Assembly (NCBI GenBank): GCA_017406465.1
Contig: JAFQYM010000027.1
Coordinates: 1-64,000, forward strand
DNA: 64,000 bases
Source: Kiritimatiellia bacterium
GTDB taxonomy: Bacteria; Verrucomicrobiota; Kiritimatiellia; RFP12; UBA1067
Reading direction: 5' to 3'
The position numbers and the translations under genes are program-made. This document shows positions 9,411-51,218 of the stretch, piece by piece. The notes beneath the pieces are model-generated. The model did no database searches, was not told the DNA's origin, and was given only the letters and a program-made list of their open reading frames with translations. Each line of letters begins with the position of its first letter. Position 1 is the first letter of the stretch.

Positions 9411-9451
9411 TTTTAGCTTTCCAATACTACTCCGCCTTTCAACGAATTATT

Positions 9452-9513
9452 AGCCGTGTAGAACGTGTAGAAACATGTAGAATTTCTACATGATCTACAT
9501 GATCTACATGGTT
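9452..9513. repeat. Iterated palindromic element, TGTAGAWC family, copy 1
   Basis: The 9-nt word CRTGTAGAW is repeated three times and then follows as its reverse complement three times, bounded by TAGCC and GGTTAA. The transcript would form a long hairpin. It lies between lolD and lolC. Two related copies are at 10834-10897 (opposite orientation) and 40031-40095. Confidence 0.85.
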
Positions 9514-9567
9514 AAATATGATGTTCTGCAACTGACTCACTTTTAGCTTTGCCCGTTAGACTTCAAA

Positions 9568-10821
9568 CTACTCCAACGCCTTGACAGGATCTTTTGTCGA
9601 GGCGATGAGAGCGGGGATGAACGATGCAAGAAGCCCAAACGCGTATACGAACGCGACAGTCCAGACGATGTCGGAGAATATCACGCGATGTGGTATCTCC
9701 GCAAGCCCGTAGACCGACTCGGGGAATACGGGAACGCCTATCGAGCCAAGCCACTCGACGATGCGCTGGAGATTCGAGAGGACGCCCCAGCTCGCAAGAA
9801 GCCCAAGGACGATTCCCGCCGTGCACTGGACGAGCCCGTGCGTCATGAATACGCCCATTATCTCGCGGCGCGAGAAGCCAAGCGCCTTCAAAAGCCCGAT
9901 CTCGGGCGTCTTCTGGACGGTGAGAACGAGGAGCGTGTTCATAACGCAGAAGAGCGCGACGAGGGAAATCAGAAGCAACAAAACGGCCGTCATGTTCTTC
10001 TCGACGGCGAGCGCGGCAAATAGCTCGCGGTCTGCCTCGCGCCAGGTGAGGGCGCGAACAGGAGTTGGGGAGTGGAGGAGTGGGGAAGTGGATGAGTTGG
10101 CAGTTTCCACGACAGTTTCTACGAGGGCGTGGAACTTCGCGGGATCGGTTGGGCAGTCGGTCTTTACGTGGATTGCGAACACGCCCTTCTCAAGCCCCAT
10201 CAAGTCGCGCACATTCGCGAGCGACGCGACGGCATAGCCGGAATCGTAGTCGTACTGGCCGCACGAGAAGATGCCGACGACCTTCCACTTGATCGGGAGG
10301 AACACCTCGTCCTGCGAGGCGAGCGTCTTCGGGGAATAGACGGTAACCTCGTCGCCGACCCAGCACCCGAGCTGGCGCGCGGCGTGGACTCCAAGCACGA
10401 TGGAGTCGCCTTCGAGGTCGAAAGTTCCTGCGCGCGGGGCGCCGATCTTGTAGGCCGCCGTAAAGTCGCCCGCGTCCACGCCGAGAAGAACGGGCGCAAG
10501 AACGCGATTGCGGTACGAAAGAAGAACTCGAGTGTCGACCTCGGGCGTGACGCACGTGACGCCAGGAAGCGCACGAACTGCCGCGGCGACATTGTCTTCG
10601 TTCGCAACGACGTTGCCCCGCACCGGCAAAATGGAGATATGGGGCTTGAAGCTGAGGATCTTCTTTTCCCACTCGTCGCCAAAGCCGGTCATCACGCTTC
10701 TAACGATGATGACGGCGGCGACGCCGAGCATTACGCCGAGAATCGAGACGCAGGTAATGACTGACGCGACCGAGCGTTTCGGTTTAAGATATTTAGTAGC
10801 TAAAAAAAACGAAAATCGCAT
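9568..10821 (-). CDS. LolC/LolE-like lipoprotein-release permease (FtsX family)
   Basis: 417 residues from the ATG at 10821 (RFSFFLATKYLKPKRS, the typical LolC/E start); an in-frame TTG at 10830 is less likely. A first membrane helix (VITCVSILGVMLGVAAVIIV), a periplasmic MacB-like domain ~45-260 (FKPHISI, DTRVLLSY), then three C-terminal helices with the FtsX signature (EKNMTAVLLLLISLVALFCVMNTL, VQKTPEIGLLKALGFSRREIMGVF). It would form a lipoprotein-release complex with the LolD-like ATPase downstream. Odd: residues ~240-254 (SSTSPLLHSPTPV) are encoded by a 40-bp run of five 8-nt repeats, which reads as an in-frame insertion just before the conserved TWREADRELFAALAVEK. Confidence 0.88.
   Translation of the reverse strand: MRFSFFLATKYLKPKRSVASVITCVSILGVMLGVAAVIIVRSVMTGFGDEWEKKILSFKPHISILPVRGNVVANEDNVAAAVRALPGVTCVTPEVDTRVLLSYRNRVLAPVLLGVDAGDFTAAYKIGAPRAGTFDLEGDSIVLGVHAARQLGCWVGDEVTVYSPKTLASQDEVFLPIKWKVVGIFSCGQYDYDSGYAVASLANVRDLMGLEKGVFAIHVKTDCPTDPAKFHALVETVVETANSSTSPLLHSPTPVRALTWREADRELFAALAVEKNMTAVLLLLISLVALFCVMNTLLVLTVQKTPEIGLLKALGFSRREIMGVFMTHGLVQCTAGIVLGLLASWGVLSNLQRIVEWLGSIGVPVFPESVYGLAEIPHRVIFSDIVWTVAFVYAFGLLASFIPALIASTKDPVKALE
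10062..10101. repeat. Five 8-nt repeats inside lolC
   Basis: GAGTTGGG, GAGTGGAG, GAGTGGGG, AAGTGGAT and GAGTTGGC follow each other without gaps on the plus strand. On the coding strand they are translated in frame as a Ser/Pro-rich loop in the periplasmic domain. Confidence 0.85.
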
Positions 10822-10833
10822 GGTTATCAATCA

Positions 10834-10897
10834 ACCATGTAGAACGTGCAGAACATGCAGAAGTTCTACACGATCTACATGTTCTACACGGCTAACC
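10834..10897. repeat. Iterated palindromic element, TGTAGAWC family, copy 2
   Basis: Same structure as the copy at 9452 but inverted (AACCATGTAG ... CGGCTAACC). It lies between the TonB-like/toroid gene and lolC and ends 12 nt before the lolC ATG, so it forms much of the lolC leader. Confidence 0.85.
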
Positions 10898-35594: not shown

Positions 35595-38456
35595 AGTGAT
35601 GGAAGATTTGCATGCCTTAATGGCCGAAATGGGCCCCTCGCAGACAAGCTCGCCGCCTGCGTCGCCGCCGCCAGGACCGAGATCGACGATCCAGTCGGCG
35701 CATCGCATCACGTCGACATTGTGCTCGATGACGATCACAGTGTTCCCCTGGTCGCGGAGCCGCAGGAGAAGCTTCATCAGCTTCGCCACGTCGTCGAAGT
35801 GAAGCCCCGTCGTCGGCTCGTCGAGGAGATAGAGCGTGCGGCCCGTCGAGCGGCGGGAAAGTTCAGTCGCGAGCTTGATGCGCTGGGCCTCACCACCCGA
35901 AAGCGTCGTCGCAGACTGCCCGAGCGCAACATAGCCAAGCCCGACGTCGACAAGCGTCTGGAGCTTGCGGGCGAGAGACGGTACCTTCGCGAAGAACTCG
36001 CATCCCTCGGCGACCGTCATCTCGAGAACGTCCGCAATGTTCTTGCCGCCGTAGGTGACTTCAAGAGTCTCGGCGTTGAACCGCTTGCCGCCGCACTGGT
36101 CGCACGTGACGTAGACGTCGGGAAGGAAACTCATCTCGAGCTTCTGCAGCCCGTCGCCGCCGCACGTCTCGCAGCGACCGCCCTTCACGTTGAAGGAAAA
36201 GCGTCCCGCCGTGTAGCCGCGCGCGCGCGCAGATTCCGTCTTCGCGAAAAGCTCGCGTATCTCGGAGAAGAAGCCGACGTAGGTCGCTGGGTTCGAACGC
36301 GGCGTGCGGCCGATAGGCGACTGGTCGATCTCCACGACCTTGTCGAAGTTCTCCCAGCCAGCAAGCTTCTTGAACTTGCCTGGGACGTCCTTCGCGTGGT
36401 AGAACTTTTGGAGAAGCGCCCGCTTAAGCGTCTCGTCGACGAGCGTCGACTTGCCAGAGCCAGAGACGCCGGTCACGACCGTGAACGCGCCGACGGGGAA
36501 ACGTGCGGTGATGTTCTTGAGGTTGTGCTCCGTGCAGCCGGAAATGGTGAGGGAGCCTTTTGCCTTTGACATTCGGCAGCCGTCGACCGACATCCCGCTC
36601 GACTGACGACTTGCGACTGTCGGCCGTCGACCGTCTGCTGTCATCACTTTTTTTCTCCCCGTCAGGTAATCTGCCGTCAGCGATTTCGACTTGAGGAGCC
36701 CTTTGAAGTTGCCCTGGTACATTACTTGTCCGCCCTCGCGCCCTGCGCCGGGACCAAGGTCGACGATGTAGTCGGCGTTCCTCATCATCTCTTCGTCATG
36801 CTCGACGACGACTACGGTATTGCCGCGGTCGCGGAGCCCCTTGAGGGTCGAGATAAGCCGCTCGTTGTCGCGCGGGTGAAGCCCTATCGTCGGCTCGTCG
36901 AGGACATAGAGAACTCCGGTGAGCCCAGAGCCGATCTGCGTCGCAAGGCGGATGCGCTGCATCTCACCGCCGGAGAGAGTTGATGCCGCGCGGTCGAGCG
37001 TCAGGTAGTCAAGACCTACGTCGAGAAGGAACTGGAGCCGCCGCACAATCTCGGCTATGATGTCCTTGAGTCCGGCAAGCTTGGCGGATGGTGCGGCGGT
37101 AGAGGCAAACTCCTTGAAGAACTCCAATGCCTCGGTGACCGGCATCGCCATCACCTCGACAATCGACTTCCCGGCGACAGTCGCCGCGCGTGACTCGGGC
37201 CTAAGCCGCGAGCCGCCGCAGTCGGGGCAGGTGCGGAAGCTCTGGTACGCCTCAAACTTCGCGCGCATCTCGTCGTCCTCCGCCTCGTCTAAGCGCCGCT
37301 GAAGCGACGCGAGGACTCCTTCAAACGGCCGGTCGACGCGCCGCCACGGGAGAACGAGATCGTCCTTGAAACCGTGCATAAGCCCGTGTCGAAACTTTGC
37401 CGGCAGTTTCTCGTATGGCGTCGAGAGCTTTACCTTGTACTGCTTTGCGATATGCGAAAGAAGCTCCTTGTGATAGAGGATGTTCATCTGCCCCATACGA
37501 CGCCAGGGGTGTATCGCCTCCTCGAGTGGAAGCGACTTGTCGGGCACGACGAGGTCTTCGTCGAAGTAGTAGAGCTGCCCGAGCCCCGCGCAAGTCGGGC
37601 ACGCGCCAAAAGGCGAGTTGAACGAAAACGACCGCGCCTTCAACTCGTCGAAGGAAATACCGCAATCGGGACAAGCGTTAAGTTCAGAGTATATATCCAG
37701 TTCCCCGTTACCCAATCTCTCCACCTCCATTATCCCCTTGCCGGTCTTTAGGGCGAGCTCGACGGAATCGGTGAGACGCGTCTTGAACGCGGCATCGGGC
37801 GCCGCTGGAATCACGAGGCGGTCAACCACGACGTCAATGGTGTGCGCCTTTTTCTTATCGAGCGCTGGAAGCTCGTCGACGGGATAGATCGTGCCGTCGA
37901 TTTTGACGCGCGCAAAACCATTGCGCTTCACGGCCGCAAGCGGTTCTTCGTGCCTGCCCTTCTTGCCCTTCACGAGAGGGGCGTAGATGATAATTTTTGC
38001 GCCACCTGCCCGTTCCCCGTTCCCCATTCCCCATTCCCCGAGAATCGCCTCCACAATCTGCTCGGCCGACTGCTTCACGACTGGCTTGCCGCAATGCGGA
38101 CAGTGCGCGACCGCAATTGAACCGTAGAGGATTCTTAAGTAGTCGTGTATCTCGGTGACGGTCGCGACGATCGAGCGCGGGTTGCCGCTCGTCGTGCGCT
38201 GCTCGATGGAAATCGCAGGCGAAAGCCCTTCTATCTTCTCGACATCCGGCTTCTGCATCCTGTCGAGGAACTGCCTCGCATACGCAGAAAGCGACTCGAC
38301 GTAGCGGCGCTGGCCTTCCGCATAGAGCGTGTCGAACGCGAGCGACGACTTGCCCGAACCCGAAAGTCCCGTCACGACCGTGAGAGAGTCGCGGGGAATC
38401 GTGACGTCGATTCCCCGCAGGTTGTGGACCTTTGCGTTCTTTATCGTGATGTCCAT
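35580..38456 (-). CDS. uvrA: Excinuclease ABC subunit A
   Basis: 958 residues from the ATG at 38456 ([15 protein letters not shown]), overlapping the rho stop by one base (TGATG). Both ABC modules are complete: Walker [15 protein letters not shown] and [14 protein letters not shown], signatures [14 protein letters not shown] and [14 protein letters not shown], and the zinc modules HCPHCG, CPDCG...CPTC and CETCGG...CDQCGG. It recognises DNA damage in nucleotide excision repair. Odd: two surface segments are made from iterated DNA repeats translated in frame, [13 protein letters not shown] (from 38012-38039) and [18 protein letters not shown] (from 36568-36642), both in positions where UvrA homologues vary in length. 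Confidence 0.97.
36568..36642. repeat. Iterated heptamer palindrome inside uvrA
   Basis: Plus-strand heptamers GACATTC, GGCAGCC, GTCGACC, GACATCC are followed after CGCTC by GACTGAC, GACTTGC, GACTGTC, GGCCGTC, GACCGTC, TGCTGTC. The two halves are imperfect inverted repeats around GTCGAC. Translated in frame in the linker before the second ABC module. Confidence 0.7.
38012..38039. repeat. Four GTTCCCC/ATTCCCC heptamers inside uvrA
   Basis: GTTCCCC, GTTCCCC, ATTCCCC, ATTCCCC without gaps. Together with adjacent bases it encodes the Gly-rich insertion [13 protein letters not shown]. The same heptamer recurs between genes at 48159-48187, which marks it as an inserted repeat rather than family sequence. 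Confidence 0.8.
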
Positions 38457-40030: not shown

Positions 40031-40095
40031 TAGCCGTGTAGAACATGTAGATCGTGTAGAGCATTTCTGCATGTTCTACACGTTCTACATGGTTA
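40031..40095. repeat. Iterated palindromic element, TGTAGAWC family, copy 3
   Basis: TAGCCGTGTAGAAC ... TTCTACATGGTTAA, in the same orientation as the copy at 9452. It fills the rho leader, and its outer TTAACC end supplies the coaE stop codon (40095-40093). Confidence 0.85.
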
Positions 40096-40698
40096 ATCAT
40101 TCGCCAGTTTTAGCTGCATCTGTTTCGACGTTAGAAACTTGAGGAACGCGGCAGCTTGCGCTTTGAGTTCCTCGGCTGTGCCGTCGTTATGGATGACGTA
40201 ATGCGAACGCTTGGCTTTTTCCTCGACAGGCAACTGCGCCACGAGCCGGGCCTCGGCTTCCGCATGTGTCATCCCCCGTGTCGTCGTCATCCGTTCGATT
40301 TGCTTCTCCCGAGAGGAGACGACGCAACATATTATATCAAAATTTTTCTCCCAGTGTGCCTCGAATAAAAGCGGAATTATAGCGACACGAACAGGACAGA
40401 CGAGACCACCGAGACTAACGGGACAATCGCCAGTCTCGTTCGTCCCGTCTGTCCCGTTTGTCCCGTCGAGCCAGTTGACAATTCTCTCCTTTACCAACGG
40501 GTGAATCTTCGCCTCGAGGGCGCGGCGCTTCTCAGGGTCGGCAAACACTTCGGCGGCAATGCGGCGACGCTCCTCTGGGTCGGGGAGGAGCTCGTGCACG
40601 ATATCATCGGCATCAAGGGTCTCGACGCCAAGTTCGTTCAGAAACTGGGAAAGGAGGGATTTGCCGCAGGCAATCCCTCCCGTTAGTGCAACTTTCAT
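40093..40698 (-). CDS. coaE: Dephospho-CoA kinase
   Basis: 201 residues. P-loop GGIACGKSLLSQF (~7-19), DADDIVHELL, and RMTTTRGMTHAEAEARLVAQLPVEEK are typical of CoaE, which phosphorylates dephospho-CoA in the last step of coenzyme A synthesis. Odd: between NWL and VAIIPLLFEAHW lie ~27 extra residues (DGTNGTDGTNETGD ...) encoded by an iterated 9-nt palindromic repeat at 40383-40469; typical CoaE has a much shorter loop here. It precedes rho and follows the secretin gene by 6 nt. Confidence 0.93.
   Translation of the reverse strand: MKVALTGGIACGKSLLSQFLNELGVETLDADDIVHELLPDPEERRRIAAEVFADPEKRRALEAKIHPLVKERIVNWLDGTNGTDGTNETGDCPVSLGGLVCPVRVAIIPLLFEAHWEKNFDIICCVVSSREKQIERMTTTRGMTHAEAEARLVAQLPVEEKAKRSHYVIHNDGTAEELKAQAAAFLKFLTSKQMQLKLAND
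40383..40469. repeat. Iterated 9-nt palindromic element inside coaE
   Basis: On the coding strand GACGGGACA, AACGGGACA, GACGGGACG, AACGAGACT are followed, after a short loop, by the reverse-complement series. About 25 of 30 arm positions pair. It is translated in frame as an Asn/Gly/Thr-rich loop. Confidence 0.85.
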
Positions 40699-40704
40699 TT
40701 TCCC

Positions 40705-43700
40705 TTAGTTAGCCGGCGCCTCGGGCGCTTCCCTCACTTCGCTGCCTTCCTGCTCGGCAATCTCAAAGCCCTCGTTGTGCATCTCACGGCCACGGCCATC
40801 GACGATGCGAGTCGTGACGAAGATGAGGAGGTTGCGCTTCGAGGTCTGCTCGGAATGGCTGCGGAAGAAACGACCGAGGAACGGAATGTCGCCGAGGAAC
40901 GGAATCTTGTCGTCCATCGCCTTGCGGGCCTCGGTGATGAGACCGCCCATGACGATCGTCGCGCCAGGATAGACCGAAACCTTCGAGTCGACAGAGCGAA
41001 CATGGAAGAACGGCTGTTCCATCGGAGCATCGTAGTAGGTGATATTGTTCGATGTTCCGCCAAGCCTGTTGGCAAGAGAGTTGATGAGGTTGACATAGGC
41101 CGCCATCATCGTGTCCCAGACCGGAGCAAGCTGTTCGGTCGTAGGAGCAAACCCTTCGAGCGTCGGTGGCTGAGGCCAAGTTCCGATGGAAAGATCCGAG
41201 CTGTTGCCCGTGAACGGAATCCTCATGCCGTAGTTTTTCCACGTCGGCTCGTCGACGACCTGCGTGTTGAGTTCGAGATCCACTACGTTGCCGTCGTCCG
41301 TCAGGGTCGGAGTGACCTGGAGAATGACGCCTACTTCGCGCATCGTGAAGCTCTGGGGCTCGACGACGGCGAGAATCGCAGACTGGCTGCCGCCGTTGTT
41401 GCCATTGCCGCTGGACGAACTCGACTGGAGCTGGACATCGTAGTCGGTCGGGTAGATGTATTCCGTCACGACCTTCATGACGGCCTCTTCGCCTGGACGC
41501 GTCAGCACCTTCGGCGCGGAGAGGAGGTCGGTGTCGCTGCGCTGCGAGAGCATGTGCAGAATCATCGAGAGGTCTGCCGAGCCAAGGAAGGCGTTAAGTT
41601 TCATGAACTGGTCGTTCGTGGACTTCGACTCGCCCGAAATGTGGTTGCCGAGCGTAGAGAGATAGCGCTGGCCGGTCGAATAGTCTTCGCCGAATTTGTT
41701 GATGCCAACATTGCGGTTGCGCCCGCCGCGCGTCCAACCGCTCGGCATGGTTGTCGTTGTGGTCGACGACGTGTCGGCCGAAGGCGTTGGCGCAATCGAG
41801 GAGCTGGAATCCGTCGTGCCACCGCCAGACGCCGAACTGCCAAACGGGCTGTCGGCCGTCGAGGTTGAAGACGACGAAGAAGACGAAGAAGAAGAGTTCG
41901 GCGAGGATGCAAGGGTCGCGCCCGATCCAAAGGAGCCGCCGCGTATGCCAAGGGCCTTGGCAAGATGCTTGTTGAGTCCAAGCGTGTAGTCGCTGTTGAG
42001 GATCCACTCGAAGCCGAGCGAGTTCAGGTCGTCCTGGCAAACCTCGATGAATCTCGTCTCGATCTCGACGAGCGTGACCTGCTGGTTGAGCTGGGCGAGG
42101 ACATTCTCGAACTCAGCGAGGTTGTCCTGGGTGTTCTTGACAAAGAGACGGCCGACCGTCTTCACATAGAAGATCGAGCTGCCCTCGGGCCACTTGACGC
42201 CGAGAAGCGAGAAGAACTCCTTCCAGTCGCGCTCTTCGTTTTCCTCGCCGTCGTCGTTCTTGCGAGAACTGCCGCCAAAGCCGCTGTTGCTCGAACGCAT
42301 CGTCGTGATGTCGCCCTTCGCGCTTTCCATCTTCTCGGTGAAGGACGAGAGAACCGGGAAGGAGCGCGTGACGAGCTCTTCGACCGACATGTCCTTGTGC
42401 ATGACCATGACGATCGGGCCCTGCACGGTGAACTTGTACTCGACGGACTCGCACACGAGCTTTAGGGCGTCGTAGAACGTGATGTCGCTCGCGGTGATCA
42501 TCGGGATTACCGGCACGCCAAGCGGTCCGCCGCCGCCCGCCGCATCGTCGGAACCCGTGTCGGAGAAGTCGTCGGCATCCTCGCTCGCCGCCGCGGCCGC
42601 CTGCATGCGGACGGCCTCGGGCGTCTTGAGGACGAAGTTGAAGCCGCGCTGCTCAAGCGGAATCTCGGGACGGTCGAAGTCCTTCGACGCGCCGCGGAAA
42701 TACTCGACGGCGTCGATAATCGTCGCCGGCGGCTTGAACGAGATCGCCGGGAGGCGCATCTCCTTCATGCGCTGGATGATCGTCTGCTCGATCGTGCGCT
42801 CCCTGTTGTTGGGGTCGGGCTTGGCCTTTACGGTGGCACCCTTCTTGTCGTCGCGGTCCTTGGCGTCGGTGGCGTATGGCGGACGCCACGCCTTGTCGAC
42901 ATCGGCCATCCACTTCTCGCGGGCGACTTCGCGCTCCTGCTTCAGGATGACGTCGCTCTTCCGGACGATGGAGTCCCTGAGGCGAATGGCCTCCTGGTTG
43001 TAGGGATCCTTCACGAGGACAAGCTCGCACTCGTCAAGCGCACGGTCGATCTCACGCTGGGCAAGCAACTGGCGCGCGCGCTTAAGGTGGCGGCGCTCAG
43101 TTTCGCGGCGAGCCTTGTAGTCGGCATCGTTGCGACGATGCGAAATCTCGGAGACATCGGTCTTGAGGGCATCGGGATCGACGGTGGAAAGCCATGCCTC
43201 AAGCTGGCGGCGGGCCTTCGGGTGGCGAAGATCTACGGCCTTCTCCATGTACTTTATGGCGCGCGCACGGCGACCGGTGCGCTCTTCCTCGAGCGCTGCC
43301 CTGTAAAGACCTTCGGCAATGCCCTCCGTGCACTCGGCCTTGTAGATCTTGGACTTCTCGCTGTCGTTCAGGAGCTTCGCGGCAATGCCGTAGTGGCGTA
43401 CGGCTTCGGCATACTCGCCGCTGGTCATCGCGGCACGGGCCTCCGAAATCTCGCGCATCGCCTGGGTGTCCATCGCCTCGCGGCGCAGTTTCTCAACCGT
43501 CAGGATCTCGCCGATAAGACCGCCGTCTTTCCTGTTCTGAAGCCGCTGCTTGACGGCTGATTCCTCCGACTCGGCGGCGGGAACAGGTTCCTCGGTAACG
43601 GGAACGGGCTCATCGGCAACGGGAACAGGCTCATCGGCAGCAGACGCAGGTGCTGGCTCCTCGACTTTGTTAGTCGGAACTTCATCCTCGCCCGCGAGTT

Positions 43701-44325
43701 CGTTGAGAAGATCAAGCGTATCATCGATCTTCTTGTCACCAGCCGTAGGTTCCTCGGCAGCAGGCGCGGGTTCATCGACTGCTGGCTCTTCAACCGCAGG
43801 CGCAGGTGCCGGTTCCTCGGCAGCAGGCGCGGGCTCATCGTCAGCAGGTGCCGGTTCCTCAGCCGCGGGCGCGGGCTCCTCGGCAGCAGGCGCGGGCTCC
43901 TCAGCAGCAGGCGCGGGCTCCTCGGCCGCGGGCGCGGGCTCTTCGGCAGCAGGTGCCGGCTCCTCGGCCGCGGGCGCGGGCTCTTCGGCAGCAGGTGCCG
44001 GCTCCTCGGCCGCGGGCGCGGGCTCTTCAGCCGCAGGTGCAGGTTCCTCAGCCGCGGGCTCCTCGGCAGTAGGTGCCGGTTCCTCAACAGCGGGGGCGGG
44101 CGCTTCAGCTGCAGGCGCGGGCGCTGGTTCCTCGACCGCAGGCGCTGGCTCTTCAGCCGCGGGCTCCTCGGCAGCAGGTGCAGGCGCAGCTGGTGTCGCG
44201 GCGGGGGCTTCGCCCTCGAGGTCGGCAAGCAGATCGTCAAGATCGTCCTGCGCGTTCATGCTCTGGCCGAGCGCTATGAAAGCGATGGTCGCCGTCAGCG
44301 CGACGTATGTCCTGAGGTTCGTCAT
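40705..44325 (-). CDS. Secretin (GspD/PilQ-type), Amuc_1098-like
   Basis: 1,206 residues from the ATG at 44325, with AGGAG 10 nt upstream. A signal peptide (TYVALTATIAFIALGQSMNA) is followed by an Ala/Pro/Glu-rich repeat of 7-residue units (EEPAPAA, ~45-200), helical TPR-like segments ~290-500, N-terminal secretin domains (LVEIETRFIEVCQDDLNSLGFEW), a Ser-rich loop and the secretin pore domain (LLSAPKVLTRPGEEA, MREVGVILQVTPTL, IPFLGDIPFLGRFFR). It should form an outer-membrane channel for a type IV-pilus-like or type II secretion-like machine. It is the last gene of the pilus-like locus; a TATAAT at 44363-44358 may give it its own promoter. Confidence 0.9.
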   Translation of the reverse strand: MTNLRTYVALTATIAFIALGQSMNAQDDLDDLLADLEGEAPAATPAAPAPAAEEPAAEEPAPAVEEPAPAPAAEAPAPAVEEPAPTAEEPAAEEPAPAAEEPAPAAEEPAPAAEEPAPAAEEPAPAAEEPAPAAEEPAPAAEEPAPAAEEPAPAAEEPAPADDEPAPAAEEPAPAPAVEEPAVDEPAPAAEEPTAGDKKIDDTLDLLNELAGEDEVPTNKVEEPAPASAADEPVPVADEPVPVTEEPVPAAESEESAVKQRLQNRKDGGLIGEILTVEKLRREAMDTQAMREISEARAAMTSGEYAEAVRHYGIAAKLLNDSEKSKIYKAECTEGIAEGLYRAALEEERTGRRARAIKYMEKAVDLRHPKARRQLEAWLSTVDPDALKTDVSEISHRRNDADYKARRETERRHLKRARQLLAQREIDRALDECELVLVKDPYNQEAIRLRDSIVRKSDVILKQEREVAREKWMADVDKAWRPPYATDAKDRDDKKGATVKAKPDPNNRERTIEQTIIQRMKEMRLPAISFKPPATIIDAVEYFRGASKDFDRPEIPLEQRGFNFVLKTPEAVRMQAAAAASEDADDFSDTGSDDAAGGGGPLGVPVIPMITASDITFYDALKLVCESVEYKFTVQGPIVMVMHKDMSVEELVTRSFPVLSSFTEKMESAKGDITTMRSSNSGFGGSSRKNDDGEENEERDWKEFFSLLGVKWPEGSSIFYVKTVGRLFVKNTQDNLAEFENVLAQLNQQVTLVEIETRFIEVCQDDLNSLGFEWILNSDYTLGLNKHLAKALGIRGGSFGSGATLASSPNSSSSSSSSSSTSTADSPFGSSASGGGTTDSSSSIAPTPSADTSSTTTTTMPSGWTRGGRNRNVGINKFGEDYSTGQRYLSTLGNHISGESKSTNDQFMKLNAFLGSADLSMILHMLSQRSDTDLLSAPKVLTRPGEEAVMKVVTEYIYPTDYDVQLQSSSSSGNGNNGGSQSAILAVVEPQSFTMREVGVILQVTPTLTDDGNVVDLELNTQVVDEPTWKNYGMRIPFTGNSSDLSIGTWPQPPTLEGFAPTTEQLAPVWDTMMAAYVNLINSLANRLGGTSNNITYYDAPMEQPFFHVRSVDSKVSVYPGATIVMGGLITEARKAMDDKIPFLGDIPFLGRFFRSHSEQTSKRNLLIFVTTRIVDGRGREMHNEGFEIAEQEGSEVREAPEAPAN
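43760..44190. repeat. 21-bp tandem repeats in the secretin gene
   Basis: The segment encoding EEPAPAA repeats consists of 21-bp units such as GGCGCGGGCTCCTCGGCAGC with frequent variants, about 16 in all. Copy number could change by slippage without breaking the frame. Confidence 0.8.
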
Positions 44326-44357
44326 ATCGAACATGCTCCTAATGTTTTGCATTGTGT

Positions 44358-49107: not shown

Positions 49108-50184
49108 TCACAATACTTTCATTTTTGGAAGGTCTTGGATGTCCACGAGTCCGACCACCCGGCCGGACCTGTCGCACACCGGCAGGTCGTCGATGCGCTT
49201 TTTCTCAAATATCTTCAGCAGCTCCGCCGCATACGCGTCGTCGTAGACGAAGAGCGGAGCCTTGGTCATGTAGAGGGAGATAGGGTCATTTAGGGTCGAA
49301 TAGGGTCCTTTAGCGTCGCTCAGGGGCGAATTAGAGTCGCTCAGGGTCTTGCCGACACTACCAGACTCTACACCGACGCTATTTGACCCTAACTTGCCCC
49401 TCTCGCTCATGATGCGGCGGAAGTCGCCGTCGGTGAAGATGCCAAGCAGCTTGCCGTCAGTGTCTGCGACAACGGCGCTGCCGCCCTGCGCCTTCGTCAT
49501 CGCCATCAGCGCGTCGAGAACGGTCGCCTGCGGGCCGACCTGCGCAAGCCGCTCGCCCGAGCGCATAACGTCTGTCACCTTCATGACAAGCGCCCTGCCA
49601 ATCGCGCCCGCCGGATGGTTCATCGCGTAGTCCTCGACCGGGAACTTCTGCGCGTCGATCATCACCATCGCAAGCGCATCGCCCATCGCCATCGTCGCCG
49701 TCGTCGAGTTCGTCGGCGCCATGCCAAACGGACACGCCTCCTTGCCGCACGGAATCTCGATGTGGATATCGCTCATCTGCGCAAGCGTCGAGTCGGGGCG
49801 GCCAGTCATCGAAATGACCTTGAGCCCGTGACGGCGGATCGCGGGAATCAAGTTGTTGACCTCGGCCGACTCGCCGGAGAAGCTAAGCGCGATAAGGACG
49901 TCCTTCGCAGAAACCATGCCGAGGTCGCCATGCATCGCCTGCACGGGATTGAGGACAATCGAGCGCGTGCCAGTCGAAGAGAAGATGGCGCTCATCTTCT
50001 CGGCGATGTGTAGATTCTTGCCGACGCCAGATACGACGACAATGCCGCCGTCCGCGACCGTTTCGAGAATCAGCCGGACCGCCTTGACAAAAGATGCACC
50101 GAGGGAGTCGCGGGTCTTCTCGAGACCCTCGATCTCTACCGCGAAGACTTGCTTCGCGCGCTCGATCATCTTGTTGTCTGTCAC
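49108..50184 (-). CDS. kdsD: Arabinose-5-phosphate isomerase (KdsD/KpsF/GutQ type)
   Basis: 358 residues, GTG start at 50184 overlapping the pta stop (GTGA). An SIS domain (GIVVVSGVGKNLHIAEKMSAIFSSTGTRS, VLIALSFSGESAEVNNLIPAIRRHGLKVISMTG) is followed by two CBS domains. It interconverts ribulose-5-phosphate and arabinose-5-phosphate, the first step to Kdo of lipopolysaccharide. Odd: between the CBS domains ~35 residues (GSNSVGVESGSVGKTLSDS ...) are encoded by an iterated 10-nt repeat, 49280-49402. Homologues run straight from the SERG-type turn to the second CBS start, so this is an in-frame insertion. Confidence 0.92.
   Translation of the reverse strand: MTDNKMIERAKQVFAVEIEGLEKTRDSLGASFVKAVRLILETVADGGIVVVSGVGKNLHIAEKMSAIFSSTGTRSIVLNPVQAMHGDLGMVSAKDVLIALSFSGESAEVNNLIPAIRRHGLKVISMTGRPDSTLAQMSDIHIEIPCGKEACPFGMAPTNSTTATMAMGDALAMVMIDAQKFPVEDYAMNHPAGAIGRALVMKVTDVMRSGERLAQVGPQATVLDALMAMTKAQGGSAVVADTDGKLLGIFTDGDFRRIMSERGKLGSNSVGVESGSVGKTLSDSNSPLSDAKGPYSTLNDPISLYMTKAPLFVYDDAYAAELLKIFEKKRIDDLPVCDRSGRVVGLVDIQDLPKMKVL
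49280..49402. repeat. Iterated 10-nt palindromic element inside kdsD
   Basis: Plus-strand units AGATAGGGTC, ATTTAGGGTC, GAATAGGGTC, CTTTAGCGTC, GCTCAGGGGC and related ones are followed by an inverted series (GACACTA, CCAGACTCTA, CACCGACGCTA, TTTGACCCTA). It is translated in frame on the minus strand. The same word is iterated at 26801-26845. Confidence 0.8.
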
Positions 50185-51218
50185 TTTGTCGTCGACTGAA
50201 GCAGCGTTACACAGATTGTTCCAACGATGTCCTCGGCGGAGCAGCCGCGCGAGAGGTCGTTCATCGCCTTGGCGAGTCCCTGGAGGTTCGGCCCGATGGC
50301 GTCGGCGCCGCCAATCCTCTGCGCGATCTTGTAGCCGATGTTGCCTGCGTTGAGGTCAGGGAAAATGAAGACGTTCGCGTCGCCCTGCACGGCGCCGTTC
50401 GGGTTCTTCTGCTTGCCGGTCGCAGGGACGATCGCCGCATCGAACTGCAGCTCGCCATCCATCTTGATGCCGGCTTCCTCGAAGCGGGGCTTTGCGAGCT
50501 CGACGGCCTTCTGGACCTTCTCGACGAGCGGACCCGCCGCGGAGCCCTTTGTGGAGAACGAGAGGTACGCGACGCGCGGCTCCTTGCCGGTGAGGTCGCG
50601 GTAGGTCTGCGCCGTAGCTAAGCCGATGTCGACGAGCTGCTCGGCCGTCGGATCGGGAATGACCGCGCAGTCGCCGAACGCGAGCACTTCGTCGCCCGAC
50701 GCCGTCGGGGTCTTGAGGTCGAGGATGAAGCAGCTCGACGCCGTCTTGACGCCCTTCTGCGTGCCAAGCGTGTGGAACGCCGCGCGAAGCATGTCGCCAG
50801 TCGAGGCGATGGAACCCGCGACAAGACCGTTGACGCGGCCGAGCTTAACCATCATGCCGCCGAAGTAGATGCGCTTCGTGCGGAGCGTCTTCTGCGCCGC
50901 GGCGAGGTCGATGATCTTCTGCTTCTCGGCGGGCTTCTTCGACTCCTTGGCGTTCCACGCCTCGAGATACGCGGCTTCGAGTTCGGCGTCGCCTTGGGTG
51001 TAGTCAATCGTCTTGATGCCGCGGTCGGCAAGCTTGAGCCCGGCCTTCGCCTCGGCGTCGGCGATTTCCGCAGGAGTGCCGAGGACGACGGGCGTCGCGA
51101 TCTTGCGGTCGACGCAAGCGCACGCGGCGGTTATGACGCGGGGGTCCATGCCCTCGGGCAGAACGACCGTGCCGTTCAGCTTCGAGGCCTTTTCAATGAT
51201 GTTCTTGATTGCGTTCAT
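50181..51218 (-). CDS. pta: Phosphate acetyltransferase
   Basis: 345 residues, the short Pta form. Motifs VLPEGMDPRVITAACACVDRKIATPVVLG, SCFILDL, DCAVIPDPTAEQLVDIGLATAQTYRDL, VAYLSFSTKGSA and VFIFPDLNAGNIGYKIAQRIGGADAIGPNLQGL are diagnostic. It makes acetyl phosphate from acetyl-CoA. The ATG overlaps the ackA stop (ATGA), so the two are coupled and together produce acetate and ATP in fermentation. Confidence 0.96.
   Translation of the reverse strand: MNAIKNIIEKASKLNGTVVLPEGMDPRVITAACACVDRKIATPVVLGTPAEIADAEAKAGLKLADRGIKTIDYTQGDAELEAAYLEAWNAKESKKPAEKQKIIDLAAAQKTLRTKRIYFGGMMVKLGRVNGLVAGSIASTGDMLRAAFHTLGTQKGVKTASSCFILDLKTPTASGDEVLAFGDCAVIPDPTAEQLVDIGLATAQTYRDLTGKEPRVAYLSFSTKGSAAGPLVEKVQKAVELAKPRFEEAGIKMDGELQFDAAIVPATGKQKNPNGAVQGDANVFIFPDLNAGNIGYKIAQRIGGADAIGPNLQGLAKAMNDLSRGCSAEDIVGTICVTLLQSTTK

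Follow-up and report, generated by a model that had tools for sequence, protein, structure and literature searches.

An in-frame palindromic array of iterated nonamers in the dephospho-CoA kinase gene of a Kiritimatiellia bacterium, and related arrays in its genus

Variable-number tandem repeats (VNTRs) are not palindromic, are not swapped wholesale for unrelated units and are seldom common to unrelated genes of one genome. Rickettsia palindromic elements (RPEs; Ogata et al.) are ~150 bp long, fall into ten families and encode a conserved peptide (PMC10969869, PMC2996958). In the P6b stem of the Nostoc tRNA-Leu(UAA) intron, both arms are made of iterated 7-nt motifs, and class II has repeatedly been replaced by class I (PMC4476775). 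REPs are single stem-loops of 20–40 nt, tagged at the end by a tetranucleotide of the GTAG/CGTC type, and are common in some Verrucomicrobia (PMC3733652). A relationship to PARCELs was considered and set aside, since these are amphipathic peptide repeats (PMC2996958). For palindromes of Kiritimatiellae, we found no description in the searchable, mostly non-subscription literature.

The palindrome analysed here lies in coaE of a Kiritimatiellia bacterium (genome G000), within a 64,000-nt stretch of DNA that was studied as a whole (the window) and compared with other genomes of the same genus (Gnnn labels). Such arrays work like RPEs but differ from them in size and in the matter of a conserved peptide, their architecture resembling that of the Nostoc trnL P6b stem.

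The nonamer hairpin in coaE and its place in the CoaE fold

The features on which the analysis centres are as follows, with the evidence for each in brackets.

40093..40698, minus strand: coaE, dephospho-CoA kinase, 201 aa, host of the insert (Pfam PF01121, E 1.5e-32)
40383..40469, minus strand: in-frame palindromic array of iterated nonamers, encoding DGTNGTDGTNETGDCPVSLGGLVCPV (repeat calls, orthologue alignment, low-pLDDT loop in the model)
40432..40461, minus strand: hairpin arm 1, made of units GGGACAAAC GGGACAGAC GGGACGAAC GAGACT as read in the coding direction (inverted-repeat search)
40425..40431, minus strand: hairpin centre GGCGATT (sequence)
40387..40416, minus strand: hairpin arm 2, in coding order an inverted copy of arm 1 (inverted-repeat search, 83% complementary)
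40031..40096, no strand assigned: GTAGAACRT element, a separate nonamer hairpin in the coaE–rho interval (sequence, inverted-repeat search, pattern search)

The identity of CoaE is also backed by matches in sequence and fold to solved CoaE structures. Its insert consists of ~80 nt of iterated NACGGGACN nonamers, in frame and folded as a hairpin whose 30-nt arms are complementary at 25 of 30 positions (83%) and separated by 15 nt. Read in the coding direction, the left arm is GACGGGACA AACGGGACA GACGGGACG AACGAGACT, followed by GGCGATT and the inverted units. A sequence-only reading of this DNA had described an in-frame palindromic repeat here with the same arm pairing, and this holds; it was also right that a nonamer is iterated, but the ACGGGACA that it quoted is only the 8-nt core of the true unit. 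Because the variable spacer bases agree between the two arms at ~5/8 positions (by eye), these seem to be genuine inverted copies rather than just two arrays of one consensus. Tandem Repeats Finder reported periods of 9 at 40442–40467 and of 18 at 40433–40467, the array thus extending slightly past the hairpin arms, to about 40467. The predicted RNA fold of the repeat region has an energy of −58.3 kcal/mol (z = −7.1), equalled by none of 200 shuffles, and the top inverted-repeat score in coaE was 17.5, against a mean of 7.6 and a maximum of 11.5 in codon shuffles (n = 400). GGCGATT is also the centre of a GGGAC hairpin in carB of three congeners (G002, G030 and G020), a candidate connection to the G000 coaE hairpin that is suggestive only.

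To place the insert in the protein, an AlphaFold2 model was built from an alignment of 51 CoaE sequences, superseding a prediction from the single sequence that reached a pLDDT of only 47.5. The model agrees with solved CoaE structures and has a mean pLDDT of 91.6, falling to only 49–57 at residues 81–100. In it the insert forms a loop (residues 79–103) between helix 55–78 and strand 104–107, after the LHPLVKERI helix and before the IPLLFE strand, and the position in a surface loop of an essential enzyme is upheld. Moreover, when it is aligned with Thermus CoaE (1UF9), the query goes straight from residue 75 to 97 against an advance of only 99 to 102 in the Thermus chain, which indicates ~19 extra residues in the CoaE of the window.

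Next to this insert, the GGTTAA end of the 40031–40096 element provides the TAA stop of coaE. There are three copies of such GTAGAACRT intergenic hairpins in the window (9450–9516, 10833–10896 and 40031–40096), with near-constant ends, TTAGCC...GGCTAA or GGTTAA.

The CoaE loop among congeners

CoaE was searched for in same-genus genomes and 33 loops were compared, with a codon-shuffle test for 7–9 nt periodicity at an FDR of 5%. Significant arrays, mostly of differing sequence, were present in 11/33 loops, about two thirds of congeners thus having none, and the same periodicity test detected no array in any of 57 CoaE genes from outside the genus set. The loop spans 20–103 codons, with a median of 48 where there is an array and 26 where there is none; array-free loops themselves vary between 20 and 39 codons, and the loop is hence tolerant in any case. 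Congeners with short CoaE loops supply the empty-site orthologues that the sequence-only reading had called for, and relatives do not share a loop of equal length made of non-repetitive DNA, the outcome named beforehand as fatal to it: lengths vary over 20–103 aa, and many loops hold other palindromic repeats.

In CoaE, G000, G008 and G004 have arrays of 9-mers, and the unit in G001, G010, G026 and G030 is the 7-mer AGGAGTC; G009 has a CTCCACT-type array, G034 one of the 8-mer TTCGATTA, and G002 carries large GC-rich palindromes. The eleventh significant loop, that of G033, is short and may be of a different kind. The proposal that a 9-nt unit lets the array grow by whole codons therefore needs qualifying. 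It is borne out once, by two near-identical CarB arrays with a length difference of exactly 9 nt, but as a general keeper of the frame the unit length fails, since 7-nt (G001, G010, G026, G030) and 8-nt (G034) arrays are in frame in the same CoaE loop, and selection on total length must maintain the frame there.

On a CoaE tree computed with the loop left out, array state requires five changes, and a clade with 98/89 support (G000, G002, G030 and G008) carries four different arrays. GGGAC is present in the arrays of both G000 and G008, and these two may share a common origin. Within CoaE, we found no pair combining near-identical flanks (>95%) with unrelated arrays; evidence of that kind comes from CarB and the aminotransferase.

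These comparisons bear on whether the insert has a selected function, either as a useful peptide loop of CoaE or as an mRNA hairpin controlling coaE. The great stability of the hairpin (z −7.1) and the preservation of the frame are what one would expect of such a function, but neither the sequence nor the length, unit or reading frame is conserved between sister species, some two thirds of congeners do without a significant array and the unit also occurs in unrelated proteins. We regard a selected function as very improbable, and the peptide encoded by the insert probably has no function of its own.

Dispersal, fixed-site replacement and unit-number change of arrays

The coaE insert had initially been viewed as a matter of a single locus. 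The insert itself is real, but arrays of this kind form a genus-wide system with many loci. By pattern search, GGGACNNAC arrays occur at several further sites of G000 and in 28/39 congeners, part of these at background level. In G000, reading of the loci placed the GGGACNNAC unit in frame in PriA, MutL and an aminotransferase; congeners have it in frame in LeuRS, CarB, RibD, MnmE, YidC, MutL and a nucleotidyl transferase. It is translated in several frames and on both strands (GTDGT, VPFVP, SRTSR), which marks it as a unit at the level of DNA.

Unit families are species-specific, each species having its own abundant ones. Counted as pattern matches, in which overlapping matches inside one array are not separated from array copies, TTCGATTATTCG occurs 208 times in G034, which carries it in its CoaE and CarB, 60 times in G032, at most 14 times elsewhere and not at all in most genomes (reversed-pattern controls, 0–1 matches), and GTAGAACRT occurs 93 times in G000 and 36 times in G027. 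AGGAGTC is abundant in G030, G058, G010 and G026, and units lying elsewhere than in CoaE are enriched in the four genomes that have AGGAGTC arrays in CoaE (Mann–Whitney p = 1.6e-4). A scan of the window for hairpins only returned just three sites, because many arrays have degenerate arms. An open frame of at least 150 aa was tried as a test of whether an array lies in a gene (29/32 arrays in G034, 8/21 in G030) and was rejected, since several arrays precede likely true starts, such as those of DnaJ-like and prepilin-like genes.

Several other repeats were noted alongside. In the window, uvrA has an in-frame CCCGTTC heptamer array of 4.6 copies at 38009–38040, which looks like a further insertion into a conserved enzyme; an in-frame TAGGGTC-type array, with units also seen in the PriA insert of G000, lies at 49281–49348 within ORF 49111–50355, and an in-frame AGGAGTGGGG-type array at 10060–10124 within ORF 9571–10830. 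A long AAEEPAP repeat run with 21-nt and 42-nt periods occupies 43751–44211, near the start of ORF 40705–44352. Congeners have further in-frame arrays in proteins identified only by eye as ABC-F linker-like (L336), glycoside hydrolase-like (L321) and TatD-like (L306).

In the loop that connects the CarB halves, significant arrays of at least eight unit families are present in 17/27 congeners. Between G012 and G033, the flanks are mostly 91–100% identical within 105 nt while the arrays, an 8-mer and a 9-mer, are 36% identical; between G000 and G002 the values are 80–100% and 42%, and in the aminotransferase of the same two genomes, 96–100% for the adjoining flanks and 46% for the loop. The converse is also found. 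The CarB array of G059 is 97% identical to that of G022 on flanks of 53–93%, and more broadly the arrays of G059 or G033 match that of G022 at 94–97% on flanks mostly at 55–90%, identity between G033 and G022 being 58–87% immediately beyond the array. The array versions of G059 and G022 differ by exactly one 9-nt unit, the sole change in unit number that we saw. A second variable spot lies ~240–330 nt upstream of the main array loop of CarB (L312, L183 and loci L341–L370), and in G034 a TTCGATTA-type unit is found at both spots.

Local slippage with template switching would account for such arrays without anything moving: a tolerant, disordered loop would grow its own tandem repeat, and quasi-palindrome correction would turn this into a hairpin. 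Variation by whole units (the 9-nt gap between G022 and G059 in CarB), the normal build-up of low-complexity sequence in variable loops and the occurrence of different units at the same site in different species all accord with it. But unrelated loci in a single genome share the same unit, and the equivalent loop is free of arrays in the 57 CoaE from outside the genus set. Unrelated arrays on near-identical flanks, together with near-identical arrays on diverged ones, make slippage alone hard to sustain and indicate replacement of whole arrays, and we consider this account distinctly unlikely.

Interspecies gene conversion, or homologous recombination over short tracts, might also bring about replacement by swapping loop alleles, with the arrays as passengers rather than as mobile elements. 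G033 and G022 are distant in the CoaE tree and have near-identical CarB arrays, and G000 and G011 have a CarB array in common (93%) at the same position, as such exchange would produce. Against this, identity between G033 and G022 drops to 58–87% right outside the array, so that the tract would need to coincide with it, and the spread of one unit to unrelated genes and intergenic sites of one genome is left unexplained. Short-tract recombination between species may contribute to array swaps; that it accounts for the arrays as a whole is rather unlikely.

An assembly artefact is extremely improbable. The genus genomes are all drafts, mostly or wholly MAGs, and repeats are hard for short-read assemblers, but differing arrays keep the frame in dozens of independent assemblies from varied studies and hosts, among them a rumen-type RUG bin (RUG12478) and a yak-rectum MAG (RGIG9840), and the arrays are short enough for single reads to span.

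A proposed origin, and comparison with known systems

We consider it probable that the coaE insert is one copy of a dispersed palindromic DNA element, probably selfish, that consists of an iterated nonamer. The arrays would move or be copied as hairpin-forming units through a single-stranded DNA intermediate, driven perhaps by a Y1/RAYT-like enzyme acting in trans or by template switching during replication, and would afterwards gain or lose whole units. Insertions in genes would persist only if in frame and in disordered surface loops, so that the CoaE fold is kept. Dispersal, species-specific families, replacement at fixed sites and change in unit number are shown by the comparisons above; we infer that the arrays are mobile hairpin elements that selection has filtered to in-frame surface loops. 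No target-site duplication is evident by eye at the arrays, and we identified no enzyme dedicated to their movement.

Another reading is that the arrays are palindromes of the REP/REPIN type mobilised by RAYT (Y1) transposases. Y1_Tnp domains score over the cut-off in 25/39 congeners, with four matches in G000, and REPs described elsewhere are found within genes for replication and repair and furnish stop codons (PMC3733652), as is the case here in priA, mutL and uvrA and at the coaE stop. The GGGAC arrays, however, lack any one end tag of the GTAG or CGTC kind and comprise 3–5 units, as opposed to single 20–40 nt palindromes, and G034 combines 208 family matches with one weak Y1 match. Y1 and the GTAGAAC family are weakly correlated (rho 0.37), which may reflect no more than genome size, a quantity that both follow (about 0.6). 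We judge REP/RAYT mobilisation unlikely. More tentatively, the dispersed element that we favour for coaE could possibly represent mobile DNA of a class of its own, where a format, short word plus hairpin, spreads instead of a fixed sequence, 7–9-mer palindromes being written into preferred protein loops and overwritten by other families through a hairpin-copying or single-strand transposition activity not yet recognised.

Protein-coding palindromes are hereby extended well past Rickettsia and Wolbachia, to an animal-gut genus of Kiritimatiellae that occurs in gut and rumen, and many essential enzymes are affected together (CoaE, CarB, PriA, MutL, LeuRS, MnmE and RibD). Filled, empty and re-filled loops form a natural series that allows a direct test of insert neutrality, and cassette swaps between near-identical flanks make the origin and movement of short-word hairpins testable from sequence data.

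Among described systems, coding minisatellites and VNTRs likewise have tandem units of changing number, but their alleles differ only in the number of homologous units, whereas here unrelated arrays stand between near-identical flanks. REPs and REPINs are also short dispersed palindromes, at times within ORFs, notably of replication and repair genes, and can provide stops (PMC3733652); G000 has RAYT (Y1_Tnp) genes, with its four matches, but the GGGAC arrays are not 20–40 nt palindromes with a constant GTAG/CGTC end tag. The Nostoc P6b stem shares with our arrays arms of an iterated short motif, wholesale replacement at one site and change of length by whole units (PMC4476775), and the 7–9-mer hairpins of CoaE and CarB, like cyanobacterial heptanucleotide repeats (STRRs), have both stem arms made of short iterated words. 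Those repeats, however, have a 7-nt unit and reside in non-coding or structural RNA of cyanobacteria, as opposed to a 9-nt unit in a protein gene of Kiritimatiellae, and P6b is intron RNA with two motif classes described, as against at least eight families, with 7-, 8- or 9-nt units, in many protein loops. Like RPEs and the protein-coding palindromes of Wolbachia, the arrays are dispersed palindromes lying in frame in unstructured segments of unrelated housekeeping genes (PMC10969869, PMC2996958): in-frame palindromes in conserved genes have empty-site orthologues (CoaE, CarB, aminotransferase), and one element, the GGGAC array, is found in several unrelated genes of G000 (coaE, priA, mutL and the aminotransferase gene). 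In place of ~150 bp with a sequence or peptide conserved within the family, however, there are ~80 nt of degenerate nonamers used in several frames and strands, and, unlike RPEs, these arrays belong to another phylum, are built of 7–9 nt words that differ by species and can fill one and the same loop with unrelated sequence in sister species.
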